NCBI GenBank assembly: GCA_003165335.1
Contig: PLTD01000127.1
Location: 62,001 to 126,000, forward strand
Direction of reading: 5' to 3'
Source: Rhodospirillales bacterium
GTDB lineage: Bacteria; Pseudomonadota; Alphaproteobacteria; BOG-932; Roseiterribacteraceae
Length of the DNA stretch: 64,000 nt
Made by a program: the position numbers and the translations under genes. Below the pieces are notes generated by a model. It was not told the DNA's origin, did no database searches, and saw only the letters and a list, made by a program, of their open reading frames with translations. Shown piece after piece: positions 47,736 to 53,101 of the stretch (position 1 is its first letter; each line of letters starts with the position of its first letter).

Positions 47736-48524
47736 TTGGATCTGGGATTGAACGGTAAAGTCGCACTGGTTTGCGCCTCGAGCCACGGGCTGGGTTTCGC
47801 GACCGCGCATCGTTTGGCGCGCGAAGGTGCGTCGGTTGTCGTCTGCGGCCGAGACGCCATGGCTGTCGACGCGGCGCGGCAGCGCATCGAGGCCGACGGC
47901 GGCAAGGTGCTGGGCATTCCCGTCAATCTCTCCGACGCGGCCGAACGCGTCAGGCTGGTCAAGGAAATCGAAGCGGGCCTTGGGCCCATCGATATTTGCG
48001 TGCTGAATACCGGCGGCCCGCCGGTGGGCACTTTCGAAACGCTGACCCTCGACCAATGGCGGGATGCCTATGACCTGCTGGTGCAGTCTGTCGTGCATCT
48101 CGCCCAACTGGTGCTGCCCGGCATGGCTGAGCGCAAATGGGGCCGCGTGCTGGCAGTGACCTCCTTCGTTGCGCGGGAGCCCGCGAACTTGATGGTGTTG
48201 TCCAACAGCCTGCGCGCCTCGGTGAACGGCCTGATGCGAACGCTCGCCAATGAATACGGGCCGCACGGCGTCACCGTGAACAGCATTCTGCCAGGCTATA
48301 TCCTGACCGACCGGATGCAAAAAGTCGTCCGTGCCCAGGCGGAAGCCCGAGGTCTGCCGCCGGATCAGGCGCTGGATCCCATCGCCAACAACGCAGCGCT
48401 GAGAAGGGTGGGCCAGCCCGACGAGTTCGGCAATCTGGCCGCGTTCCTGGTCAGCGAAGCCGCCAGCTATGTGACGGGGACCGCCATCACGATCGATGGC
48501 GGTCTGTCACGCGGAGTCTATTGA
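47736..48524 (+). CDS. SDR family oxidoreductase
   Basis: NGKVALVCASSHGLGFATAHRLAREGASVVVCGRD, LNTGGPPVGTF, C-terminal YVTGTAITIDGGLSRGVY; TTG 47736 after GGGGAGGG (longer ORF from 47658 possible). Confidence 0.93.
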   Translation: MDLGLNGKVALVCASSHGLGFATAHRLAREGASVVVCGRDAMAVDAARQRIEADGGKVLGIPVNLSDAAERVRLVKEIEAGLGPIDICVLNTGGPPVGTFETLTLDQWRDAYDLLVQSVVHLAQLVLPGMAERKWGRVLAVTSFVAREPANLMVLSNSLRASVNGLMRTLANEYGPHGVTVNSILPGYILTDRMQKVVRAQAEARGLPPDQALDPIANNAALRRVGQPDEFGNLAAFLVSEAASYVTGTAITIDGGLSRGVY

Positions 48525-48527
48525 CGG

Positions 48528-49400
48528 CTATTCCGCAGCCATCGCCATGGCGGCATGTTCCGGGCGCGGGTCTTCGCTGACCGTGGTGGTCCAGCGCCAG
48601 GTGCCTGACGGAATGGTCGGGGTGATGCCGTATTCGGCCCGGATATCGCTGATCTGCGTGTTCACCAGGTCGCGATAGGGCAGCATCATCAGCGGCATTT
48701 TCCAGTTTCGGCCCTGTTCGGCGCCGAAATCCTCGGCATCCAGCTCGATCTTGAAACATTCGGGATAAAACAGCCCGCTCTTCATGGTCGTCTTGGCTTT
48801 CAGGTAACTCCCGACCCGGTTGAAGAACGCCGCCAATTCGGGCCGGAAATATCGGTAATAGGCGCGCGTGTTGGCCGCCAGCAGCGCGATTTCGCCGGCA
48901 TGGTCGGTTTCAAAGCTGGTGATCAGATGCTCCATGTCGTGCGTCAGCGCGCGCTGTTTCAGGTAGAAATCGAATTCGGTCTCGATCTTCATGCCCTGGA
49001 AGAACAGGTCCATGTTGTAGCCGCTGTTGGCCATAAAGTCGTAGATCACCGAGCCCAGAGTGCCCGGGGCGCAATCCTTGACTTCCTCGACCTTGAAATC
49101 CGCAAATTGCCGTCGTTTCAGCCACGCCCTGAACTCTGGCAGCCGCTGCTTTTCCTCCTCGAACAGGCGCAGAATTTCTGCGTGGTTTTCCAGCCGGTGC
49201 AGAATCTGCGCGACTTCGGGAATGAAGGCGGTGTTCGGCATGTCGGGGCCGTTCCGGCGCAGCATCTCCTGCGCGATCAACTGGCGCAGCGCAGGGTCGT
49301 TCAGATAGGGCGAGGACGAAACCAGCGTTGAACTGTCGGTCGTGATCTTCTTGATCGAGCCGTTGAAATAATCGAAGTCTGCCTGGCTGACTTCCACCAT
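48528..49400 (-). CDS. Coq4-like family protein
   Basis: THDMEHLITSFETDHAGEIAL matches the HDxxH-x11-E metal-binding motif of COQ4; 290 aa. Confidence 0.75.
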   Translation of the reverse strand: MVEVSQADFDYFNGSIKKITTDSSTLVSSSPYLNDPALRQLIAQEMLRRNGPDMPNTAFIPEVAQILHRLENHAEILRLFEEEKQRLPEFRAWLKRRQFADFKVEEVKDCAPGTLGSVIYDFMANSGYNMDLFFQGMKIETEFDFYLKQRALTHDMEHLITSFETDHAGEIALLAANTRAYYRYFRPELAAFFNRVGSYLKAKTTMKSGLFYPECFKIELDAEDFGAEQGRNWKMPLMMLPYRDLVNTQISDIRAEYGITPTIPSGTWRWTTTVSEDPRPEHAAMAMAAE

Positions 49401-49454
49401 GATCGTCTCCTCCGGTTGCGCGCTCCCGGCGAAGTGCCGTCGAGTGCGTTAACT

Positions 49455-49485
49455 TTACATATGTCTAGATTATAGACGAATGTAA
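49455..49485 (-). promoter_or_regulatory. 31-bp dyad overlapping a TATAAT box upstream of Coq4-like gene
   Basis: TTACAT-AT-GTCTA-GATTA-TAGAC-GA-ATGTAA; minus strand centre contains TATAAT (49469-49474). Confidence 0.65.
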
Positions 49486-49513
49486 GGCAATCGAGCCGGG
49501 TGCGACATGATGG

Positions 49514-52500
49514 TTAAGCTGCCACCGCCTCCACCGGTGCTTTGTACCGCGCCATCAGCTCAGCTTCCTTTGCCTTAGCAGTCACAACGCTAGCCGCTTT
49601 GACCGGACCGTAACCGCGGATCTGGTCGGGGATACCCGCCAGCGCCACCGACAAGGCATGGTTGGCGGGAGTCAGGCCTGCCGTCAGTTCGTCGACCAGC
49701 GCTTCATACTCGGCGATCAGCCGGCGTTCGGTCTTGCGGTCTTCGCTATGGCCGAAGAAGTCGAAGTGCGTGCCGCGCAGACCCTTCATCGCCGCCAGCA
49801 ACTTGAAGAGGCTCATCGCCCAGGGACCGAATTTGCGTTTCTTCGGTCGGCCGGTAACCGGGTCGGGCTTGTTCAGGATTGGCGGGGCAAGGTGAAACTC
49901 CAAGGAAAGCTTACCCTCGAATTCCTTCTCGATCGCCGCTCCGAAACTGCCGTCGGTATAAAGACGCGCCACCTCGTACTCGTCTTTATAGGCGAGCAGC
50001 TTGAAATAGTTGCGCGCTACCGCACCGGCCAGGCTGTTGAAGCCGGGCGTCTTAGCAGACTCTGCAGCGCGAACCCGTTCGACCAATGTGCGATAGCGCT
50101 CGGCATAGGCTGAGTTCTGATAAGCGGTGAGGAAGTCGGCGCGTCGGGTAATCGCCTCGTCCAGGGTCTCGATTGGTTTGGCCTGCGGCTTCAATTCGGC
50201 CTCGGCTGCGACCAGATCAGGCTCCTGGGCCGCCAACCGGCCCCAGGCAAAGGCGCGCTTGTTGGCATCGACTGCCGCGCCGTTCAGTTCGATCGCCCGC
50301 AGCATCGCCTCGGCCGTGACGGGCACGAGCCCACGCTGCCAGGCGAAGCCCAGTATCATCATATTGGCGTAGATCGCATCGCCCAGCAGGCGCGTTGCGG
50401 CCGAATGGGCATCGAACTCGGCAACCTCGCGCGCCGCGGACTTAAGCAAGCGTCGGATGTCGGCGATATCATATTCTGTATCGCGGTTCTGGACGAACTC
50501 TGCCGTCGGGGCGATTGCGCTGTTCATTACGGTCACGGTGCGGTCGCTGCCGCCCGCCCGCAGCGCCAGCGGCGTTTCACCGACGATCGGGTCGGCGACC
50601 AACAAAAGGTCGGCCATCGCCGTGCCGATACGCGAACCGTTAATGGCCTGCGAGCCGTCGTTGATCCGCATATGCGACAGCACGGCGCCGCCTTTCTGCG
50701 CCAGCCCAGTCATGTCCAACGAAGAGAAACCGTTTCCGTCCAGATGTGCCGCCATGCCCAGTATTGCAGCCAGTGCGGTAATTCCGGTGCCGCCGATTCC
50801 GGCGATCAGAATATTATAGGGCTCGACGCCCAGCGCCGGCAGGTCGGGGACCGGCAACGGCCGGGTTGTCGGGTCCAGCTTGGCCTTCAGCTTGCGCGGC
50901 TTGCCGCCATGCACGGTGACGAAGCTGGGGCAAAAGCCGTTTACGCAGGAAAAATCCTTGTTGCAGGACGATTGGTCAATGTGCCGTTTGCGGCCGAATT
51001 CGGTGTCCACCGGCTCGACCGACAGGCAGTTGGATTGGGTGCTGCAGTCGCCGCAGCCCTCGCACACGGACTGGTTGATAAAGACCCGCTGATCGGGGTC
51101 GGGAAAGGTATGGCGCTTGCGGCGGCGGCGCTTTTCCGCCGCGCAGGTCTGATCATAGATGATGGAGGTGACGCCTTCGATGTCGCGCAACTCACGCTGG
51201 ACCGCGTCCATCCGCTCACGATGTTCGACTGTGACGCCGGGCGCCAATCCGCTGCCGGCGTCGTATTTCTCCGGCTGGTCGGTGACCACGACGATCTTGC
51301 CGACTCCTTCGTCGGCCAATTGCCGGCTCAGCATGGGCACCGTCAACGTGCCGTCGACATGCTGTCCCCCGGTCATCGCCACGGCATCGTTGAACAGCAG
51401 CTTGTAGGTAATGTTGGCCTTTGCGGCGACCGCGAAACGAATCGCCAGCAGGCCGGAATGGAAATAGGTGCCGTCACCCAAGTTGGTGAATATATGCGGC
51501 GTCGTAACGAAAGGAGCTTCGCCGATCCAGGTCGTACCTTCGCCGCCCATTTGAGTAAATGTGTCGGTGTTGCGGTCCGGCATCGTCCAGGTAACCAGAT
51601 AATGGCAGCCGATGCCGCCGGCTGCGCGGCTGCCCTCGGGAAGTTTGGTCGATGTATTGTGCGGGCAGCCGGAGCAGAAATAAGGCAGGCGCTCGTTCTT
51701 GGCGATCAGAGTCTTTAATATGTCGTCGTTGAACTGCAGCCGCTCCAGCCGCGTACGGATCTGTTCCTCCAGGGACTCTTCGCGCGGCAAGCAATAGGCG
51801 ATGGCACGTGCGATTTCCGCAGTCGAAAGATCGCCGACGGAGGGCAGCATCGGTTTGCCCTCGCGGTCGTGCTTACCGACGATACGCGGCCAATGGCCGC
51901 CCGGCAGTCCGTAGAGCACGTCGCGCAACTGCCGCTCCATCAGTTCGCGCTTTTCCTCGATGACCAAGACCTGCTCCAGGCCGCGGGCGAAGTTACGCGC
52001 GCCTTCCGGTTCGATCGGCGCCGTCATGCCGACCTTGTACAAGCGAATTCCGTGCTCCGCCGGGTCGGTGATGCCCAGATCGTGCAGCGCCTGAATGACG
52101 TCGAGATAGGATTTTCCGGCAGTCATGATGCCCAGTCGGGCATTCGGCGGGTTGCTGACGATTCGGTCGATGGGGTTGGCACGAGCAAACGCCAGCGCCG
52201 CCGGCACCCGAAACTCCCGTAGCAGGCGTTCCTTTTCCAGCGCTCGCATGCCGAGCCGGATATGCAGCCCACCTGGCGGCATCTCGAAGTCGGTCGGCAG
52301 AACGATATGCGGCTCGCCTGGGCGCAGATCCACTGTCGCGGTGGAGTCCATAGTGTCCGACAGGGCTTTTAGACCTACCCAAAGGCCGGCGAATCGCGAC
52401 ATAGCCCAACCGTAAAGGCCGAACTCGAGCACTTCCTGGATGCTGGCGGGGTTAAGAACCGGTATTTCGAGGTCCAGCAGTGCGAATTCGCTCTGACCGG

Positions 52501-52966
52501 CCAAAGTCGAAGATTTTGCGGCATGATCGTCGCCGGCCACAAGCAGCACGCCGCCATGCTTGGCCGTGCCGTCCGAATTGGCATGGCGGAACGCGTCGCC
52601 CGAACGGTCGACGCCTGGAGCCTTGCCGTACCATAGGCCGAAGACGCCATCGTAGCGCGCGTCGCCGTGCAAGCCGGCCTGTTGGCTGCCCCAGACCGCC
52701 GTTGCCGCCACCTCTTCATTCACGCCCGGCTTAAAGACGATATTTTCCGAATCGAGAAACTTCTGAGCGTTCCAAAGCTGTTGGTCGAAGCCGCCGAGCG
52801 GCGACCCGCGATAGCCGGAGATGAAACCCGCGGTATTGAGGCCGGCGGCGCGGTCGCGTGCCTTTTGCAGCAAAGGCAGTCGGACCAGAGCCTGCGTGCC
52901 CGTCATCATCACGCGTCCGGACGCGGCGGTATATTTATCGTCTAAAGCGACATCGCGCAGCGCCAT
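49514..52966 (-). CDS. Indolepyruvate ferredoxin oxidoreductase family protein (fused, 1150 aa)
   Basis: RVMMTGTQALVRLPLLQKARDRAAGLNTAGFISGYRGSPLGGFDQQLW; YFCSGCPHNTSTKLPEGSRAAGGIGCHYL; QSVCEGCGDCSTQSNCLSVEP; IAGIGGTGITALAAILGMAA. Confidence 0.95.
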   Translation of the reverse strand: MALRDVALDDKYTAASGRVMMTGTQALVRLPLLQKARDRAAGLNTAGFISGYRGSPLGGFDQQLWNAQKFLDSENIVFKPGVNEEVAATAVWGSQQAGLHGDARYDGVFGLWYGKAPGVDRSGDAFRHANSDGTAKHGGVLLVAGDDHAAKSSTLAGQSEFALLDLEIPVLNPASIQEVLEFGLYGWAMSRFAGLWVGLKALSDTMDSTATVDLRPGEPHIVLPTDFEMPPGGLHIRLGMRALEKERLLREFRVPAALAFARANPIDRIVSNPPNARLGIMTAGKSYLDVIQALHDLGITDPAEHGIRLYKVGMTAPIEPEGARNFARGLEQVLVIEEKRELMERQLRDVLYGLPGGHWPRIVGKHDREGKPMLPSVGDLSTAEIARAIAYCLPREESLEEQIRTRLERLQFNDDILKTLIAKNERLPYFCSGCPHNTSTKLPEGSRAAGGIGCHYLVTWTMPDRNTDTFTQMGGEGTTWIGEAPFVTTPHIFTNLGDGTYFHSGLLAIRFAVAAKANITYKLLFNDAVAMTGGQHVDGTLTVPMLSRQLADEGVGKIVVVTDQPEKYDAGSGLAPGVTVEHRERMDAVQRELRDIEGVTSIIYDQTCAAEKRRRRKRHTFPDPDQRVFINQSVCEGCGDCSTQSNCLSVEPVDTEFGRKRHIDQSSCNKDFSCVNGFCPSFVTVHGGKPRKLKAKLDPTTRPLPVPDLPALGVEPYNILIAGIGGTGITALAAILGMAAHLDGNGFSSLDMTGLAQKGGAVLSHMRINDGSQAINGSRIGTAMADLLLVADPIVGETPLALRAGGSDRTVTVMNSAIAPTAEFVQNRDTEYDIADIRRLLKSAAREVAEFDAHSAATRLLGDAIYANMMILGFAWQRGLVPVTAEAMLRAIELNGAAVDANKRAFAWGRLAAQEPDLVAAEAELKPQAKPIETLDEAITRRADFLTAYQNSAYAERYRTLVERVRAAESAKTPGFNSLAGAVARNYFKLLAYKDEYEVARLYTDGSFGAAIEKEFEGKLSLEFHLAPPILNKPDPVTGRPKKRKFGPWAMSLFKLLAAMKGLRGTHFDFFGHSEDRKTERRLIAEYEALVDELTAGLTPANHALSVALAGIPDQIRGYGPVKAASVVTAKAKEAELMARYKAPVEAVAA

Positions 52967-53101
52967 CACGCAGGCCTCCCAAACGGTTGTCTTACATAAT
53001 ATATGCTCAGCCTATTGAAGAATCTCGTCAAAATGGGTCGGGGGCTCTAACTATGTTGGAGAATCTATCGAATATTGATCAAGTTTCTGGTATGATAATC
53101 C

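Follow-up and report, generated by a model that had tools for sequence, protein, structure and literature searches.

The 31-bp dyad at positions 49455-49485 of the window (the whole 64-kb stretch of DNA analysed here) is, as judged from its conservation in three species, a real conserved operator, and we regard an unlinked, autoregulated TetR-family repressor, encoded at G000:C140:22269-22874 (G000 being the window's own genome), as the likely protein that binds it. This regulator probably controls a small and scattered set of genes that includes the coq4-like gene next to the dyad.

The dyad (TTACATATGTCTAGATTATAGACGAATGTAA, unstranded) has 11 matched pairs in blocks of 6+5, and its coordinates, letters and two blocks per arm are exactly as reported in a preliminary description of this DNA. 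The genome-wide motif search proposed there returned 49455-49485 and, with up to 3 mismatches allowed, no other match in the 5.19-Mb genome, and the specific sequence had 0 matches in 100 shuffles of the window. Rarity is exaggerated by a statistic on the dyad's fixed sequence. Any dyad of the 6+5 architecture is expected ~0.025 times per 64 kb, or ~2 times per genome, and when the 113-bp intergenic region was dinucleotide-shuffled 3000 times, 3 of the shuffles reached the same pairing. The evidence from the single sequence is moderate, and the significance of the dyad therefore rests on its conservation, which is strong. When the pattern was relaxed to the GTCTA-N5-TAGAC core alone, perfect palindromes were also found at G000:C234:16455 and G000:C256:8092, in the promoter regions of TonB/OmpA-domain receptor and malate synthase genes; both were discarded, as neither has the outer ACA/TGT blocks.

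To follow the element in relatives, we compared G000 with the other two genomes of its genus (G001 and G002) and with two genomes of a sister genus (G003 and G004). The putative target gene (48528-49400, minus strand) encodes a Coq4-like protein of 290 aa (Pfam PF05019, E = 1.1e-6) whose orthologues in G001 and G002 are 81% and 76% identical. Its start lies 70 bp from the operator centre, in line with the distance of about 70 bp described previously, and in all three genomes of the genus the dyad precedes the coq4-like ATG, 70-74 bp away (read along the gene: ACATTCGTCTATAATCTAGACATATGT, ACATTCGTCCATAAATTAGACGATTGT and ACAGACGTCTATAAATTAGACATCTGT). With the three sequences aligned without gaps and the dyad as anchor, 19 of the 27 columns of the operator core ACANNNGTCTA-N5-TAGACNNNTGT (own sequence ACATATGTCTAGATTATAGACGAATGT; 49457-49483, unstranded) are invariant over the three species, versus 7 of the 100 columns directly upstream; just downstream of the core the count is 4/10, and then 1/23. 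The three sites are palindromic, with 10/13, 9/13 and 10/13 pairs. The gene upstream in the window, on the same strand, encodes an indolepyruvate ferredoxin oxidoreductase (IOR; 49514-52969, minus strand), which is not next to coq4 in G002. In G001 the gene directly upstream is pentapeptide-repeat-like, with IOR beyond it, and on the 17-kb coq4-like contig of G002 no IOR gene was found anywhere and the dyad is kept. Because the upstream neighbour differs between genomes while the dyad stays, the element belongs to the coq4-like gene and not to the gene upstream. The earlier proposal that the dyad is an operator is thus borne out by conservation in three species, and the dyad passed the check set there for its loss upstream of orthologues; this conservation extends over the genus, and more distant orthologues do not have the dyad. 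G001 also carries, at L045:3270-3965 (G001:C276), a decayed second coq4-like copy with 57% identity and four in-frame stops.

Searching the three genomes of the genus for the core with up to 3 mismatches gave few matches, with no excess over a reversed-pattern control. The sole match besides the coq4-like site in both G001 and G002 is one orthologous site, on another contig, upstream of a TetR-family gene, and G000 has the orthologous tetR-promoter site as well, again on a contig other than that of the coq4-like gene. The regulator has an N-terminal TetR_N helix-turn-helix domain (PF00440, E = 6.4e-17), and the site lies in its own promoter in all three genomes. When these tetR promoters are aligned, the site stands out sharply as a block (CTTTACAAATGTCGAGTCATTTTACGGGTGTTCA) from surroundings that have diverged, with 23 of the 27 core columns invariant, although the tetR sites are poor palindromes (7/13 pairs). 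Taken together, the six coq4-like and tetR sites share 17 invariant columns, including the flank CTWTACA, and differ in their core half-sites (GTCTA versus GTCGA/GTAAA). The window's own flank, AACTTT (49451-49456, plus strand), falls within this extended motif, which the tetR sites have too; in alignment A1, columns C3, T4 and T6 are invariant. Another TetR gene, near the coq4-like locus of G001 (L041:5052-5735), was considered as the regulator and rejected, its promoter being without a matching dyad.

A sparse pattern of 12 fixed bases, derived from the coq4-like and tetR sites after the latter had been seen, recovers only these two sites in G001 and G002 and adds one site in G000, in the promoter of an OmpW-type porin gene, with 0 matches for the control. 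A sequence-only model of the six sites, applied to five genomes of the family, finds the same two sites in each genome of the genus (E 1e-7 to 3e-6; the match in the window spans 49451-49486, 31.7 bits). Among held-out sites in G000 it finds the OmpW promoter (E 0.0014) and the promoter of a Rieske oxygenase gene (E 0.045), with no match in the sister-genus genomes G003 and G004 and nothing further in G001 or G002. G000 is the only genome in which the OmpW and Rieske sites turned up. The operator-like site before the Rieske gene lies at G000:C263:58640-58666 (L075:8640-8666), its centre 77 bp from the ATG; the Rieske gene is followed by genes for an amidohydrolase and a CitE-like lyase. A class-wide scan with the motif gave only two further matches, no excess over the reversed-pattern control.

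As a control against circularity, we built matrices from each set of sites separately and took their statistics from 99 Mb of simulated sequence, with a background modelled on the window. With the matrix from coq4-like sites only, the OmpW site outscores everything in the 99 Mb, and with the matrix from tetR sites only it again lies above all simulated sequence. Under the coq4-only matrix with the window background, 0.05 sites like the Rieske one are expected per genome. When the background is made more AT-rich, the OmpW site keeps its standing, whereas the expectation for the Rieske site under the coq4-only matrix rises to ~1 per genome, so that of these two the Rieske site is the weaker. By the coq4-only matrix, ~8 sites equal to the tetR site of G000 are expected per genome, so that the direct resemblance between coq4-like and tetR sites is modest. 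The link between them leans on the conserved position of the tetR site, ahead of a TetR gene in all three species, and on the fit of the OmpW site to both matrices.

The gene content around these sites adds a functional connection. Divergent from tetR is an operon encoding a HiPIP, an unknown secreted protein, a DUF1592/1588 protein and a DUF1552 protein (domains DUF1587/1595/1592/1588/1585 and DUF1552). A second operon, at L062:8691-13931 (G000:C140:48691-53931), has the order coq4-like, unknown secreted protein, DUF1592, DUF1552, and is paralogous to the tetR-divergent operon plus the window's coq4-like gene. As this operon joins a coq4-like gene to the unknown, DUF1592 and DUF1552 genes, the Coq4-like proteins and the tetR-linked operon are probably one system, and their joint control is plausible. 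Next after this operon comes a gene of secreted-repeat lipoprotein-like type. The OmpW site has a DUF1552 gene at a distance of ~6 kb, and the Rieske site has another at ~8.5 kb. A secreted family of ~410 aa (ETRGYVVSWFGVSTYYG...; L058:6497-7753, minus strand, with orthologues in L059 and L060) adjoins the DUF1592/DUF1552 pair in the four full loci examined, and it has no match in Pfam or NCBIfam. Among 385 genomes of the class, the Coq4 orthologue, the dyad and the TetR orthologue are all confined to the genus, a co-occurrence that agrees with joint control but is confounded by common ancestry.

Within the dyad spacer the preliminary description had emphasized a TATAAT on the minus strand (49469-49474). 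The hexamer is present, yet it does not hold up as the key feature: its counterparts in the orthologues are CATAAA and TATAAA, and the tetR, OmpW and Rieske sites have no TATAAT at their centres. We consider it probably incidental. Just downstream of the dyad, TAAAGT (49452-49457, minus strand) corresponds to TATAGT and TATAGC in the orthologues, and this conserved TAWAG(T/C) would be an equally good -10 candidate, but it also lies within the extended motif. A search for sigma-70-type pairs found none at the dyad, in agreement with the previous remark that no good -35 is visible. In the tetR promoters of G000 and G001, a TTTACG-17 bp-TATAGG pair overlaps an operator arm, which fits what autorepression would need.

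Several other readings of the dyad have to be weighed against the TetR repressor. It could be the operator of a different regulator, a paralogue or an unrelated protein encoded elsewhere in the genome, with the tetR-promoter site being a distinct site of TetR itself that resembles the dyad by chance. This would explain why the tetR site does not stand out with the coq4-only matrix and why the core half-sites differ, but we consider it rather unlikely, given the columns that stay invariant over all six sites, flank included, the fit of the OmpW site to either matrix, the lack of any further fit in G001 and G002, and the functional connection between coq4-like and the tetR operon. We judge it improbable that the protein at the dyad, whether of TetR type or not, activates a promoter without a -35 element. 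The empty sigma-70 search agrees with such a role, and a few TetR-family proteins do activate; however, the operator shares sequence with both -10 candidates, and its centre lies only 70 bp before the ATG, where repressors typically act; the tetR-promoter site, for its part, overlaps the TTTACG-17 bp-TATAGG pair in G000 and G001.

It is very unlikely that the dyad answers to the Lrp/AsnC protein encoded beyond the IOR gene. That gene is the sole regulator gene noticed near the dyad in the parts of the window examined, and the preliminary description had allowed for it, but the dyad does not accompany this locus in G002, where the contig that keeps it is without IOR, the gene searched for there, and the motif recurs on other contigs before the tetR, OmpW and Rieske genes. 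There is equally little to be expected of a function as RNA, in a 5'-UTR hairpin or a terminator. On the plus strand the substitutions in the arms would still pair as G-U, but that strand is antisense to coq4. A terminator search at the dyad and an Rfam search of 48000-51000 gave no match, the tetR sites are too poorly paired, and the motif is found in both orientations relative to genes.

The TetR repressor thus remains the reading we favour; a TetR-class repressor was among the regulators suggested before, and the candidate is now the unlinked tetR gene, whose own promoter holds a site of this kind. Proteins of the TetR family act mostly as repressors, through promoter occlusion, and ligand binding frees them from DNA; we assumed the repressor mode, as opposed to activation, from this family membership. 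A TetR dimer, or a pair of dimers in view of the 27-bp core with its two-block arms, would sit on the coq4-like promoter region and block RNA polymerase there, and the unlinked TetR would in this way repress both coq4-like and itself. A small molecule related to the pathway would then release TetR, and the scattered regulon would be switched on together. The two blocks per arm would suit two dimers, one extended dimer site being the alternative. More tentatively, the putative regulon of Coq4-like protein, HiPIP, planctomycete-type cytochrome (DUF1592/1588), DUF1552 protein, OmpW porin and Rieske oxygenase might serve the periplasmic or outer-membrane oxidation of a hydrophobic, possibly isoprenoid, substrate in this alphaproteobacterial lineage, with TetR as the substrate sensor.

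Outside the genus, orthologues of the coq4-like gene in Sphingomonas, Sphingorhabdus, Sphingobium and Novosphingobium lie inside operons or after a TonB receptor gene, near a gene for an XRE-like HTH protein, and no dyad was found at these loci. This implies that the wiring of dyad and coq4-like gene is lineage-specific. The orthologous gene there adjoins a regulator of a different type, the XRE-like HTH family (L038:7306-8349, minus strand, in Sphingomonas; L040:7370-8377, minus strand, in Sphingorhabdus; L056:6249-6899, minus strand, in Novosphingobium; L055:5438-6187, plus strand, in Sphingobium). Attractive as these proteins are as cognate regulators of the dyad, they were rejected, since their loci are without it.

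The motif provides a handle on families without an assigned function, namely the bacterial Coq4-like paralogues, DUF1592/DUF1588, DUF1552 and the unnamed secreted family, which the common operator and the paralogous operon tie together. Naming a single regulator opens a route to the functional test of several uncharacterised families at once, and the case illustrates that a comparison of patterns over just three genomes can suffice to propose a regulator for an orphan operator.

The mechanism proposed here is ordinary, while the regulon appears to be undescribed. A literature search covering DUF1552/DUF1592, TetR together with HiPIP in sphingomonads, and Novosphingobium proteins of the Coq4 family found nothing relevant. 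TetR reaches no equivalog cut-off in NCBIfam. The solved relatives nearest to it by sequence include Mce3R, AcrR, TtgR, KstR2 and QacR, mostly through the DNA-binding domain. It shares with autoregulated TetR/AcrR repressors of the AcrR/TtgR/MtrR type the TetR_N domain, a palindromic operator, a site in its own promoter and a divergent target operon, and differs in that an important putative target is unlinked and the putative targets include no efflux pump. With its 27 bp and two conserved blocks in each arm, the core may be likened to the long operators of QacR and CprB and would be compatible with two dimers; CprB occupies 22 bp and, like QacR, binds as a dimer of dimers (PMC4150764). With its DUF1587/1595/1592/1588/1585 and DUF1552 proteins, the divergent operon resembles the gene pairs of planctomycete-type cytochrome c (PSCyt)/DUF1592 and DUF1552, but here its partners are HiPIP and Coq4-like proteins, and its regulator would be a TetR.
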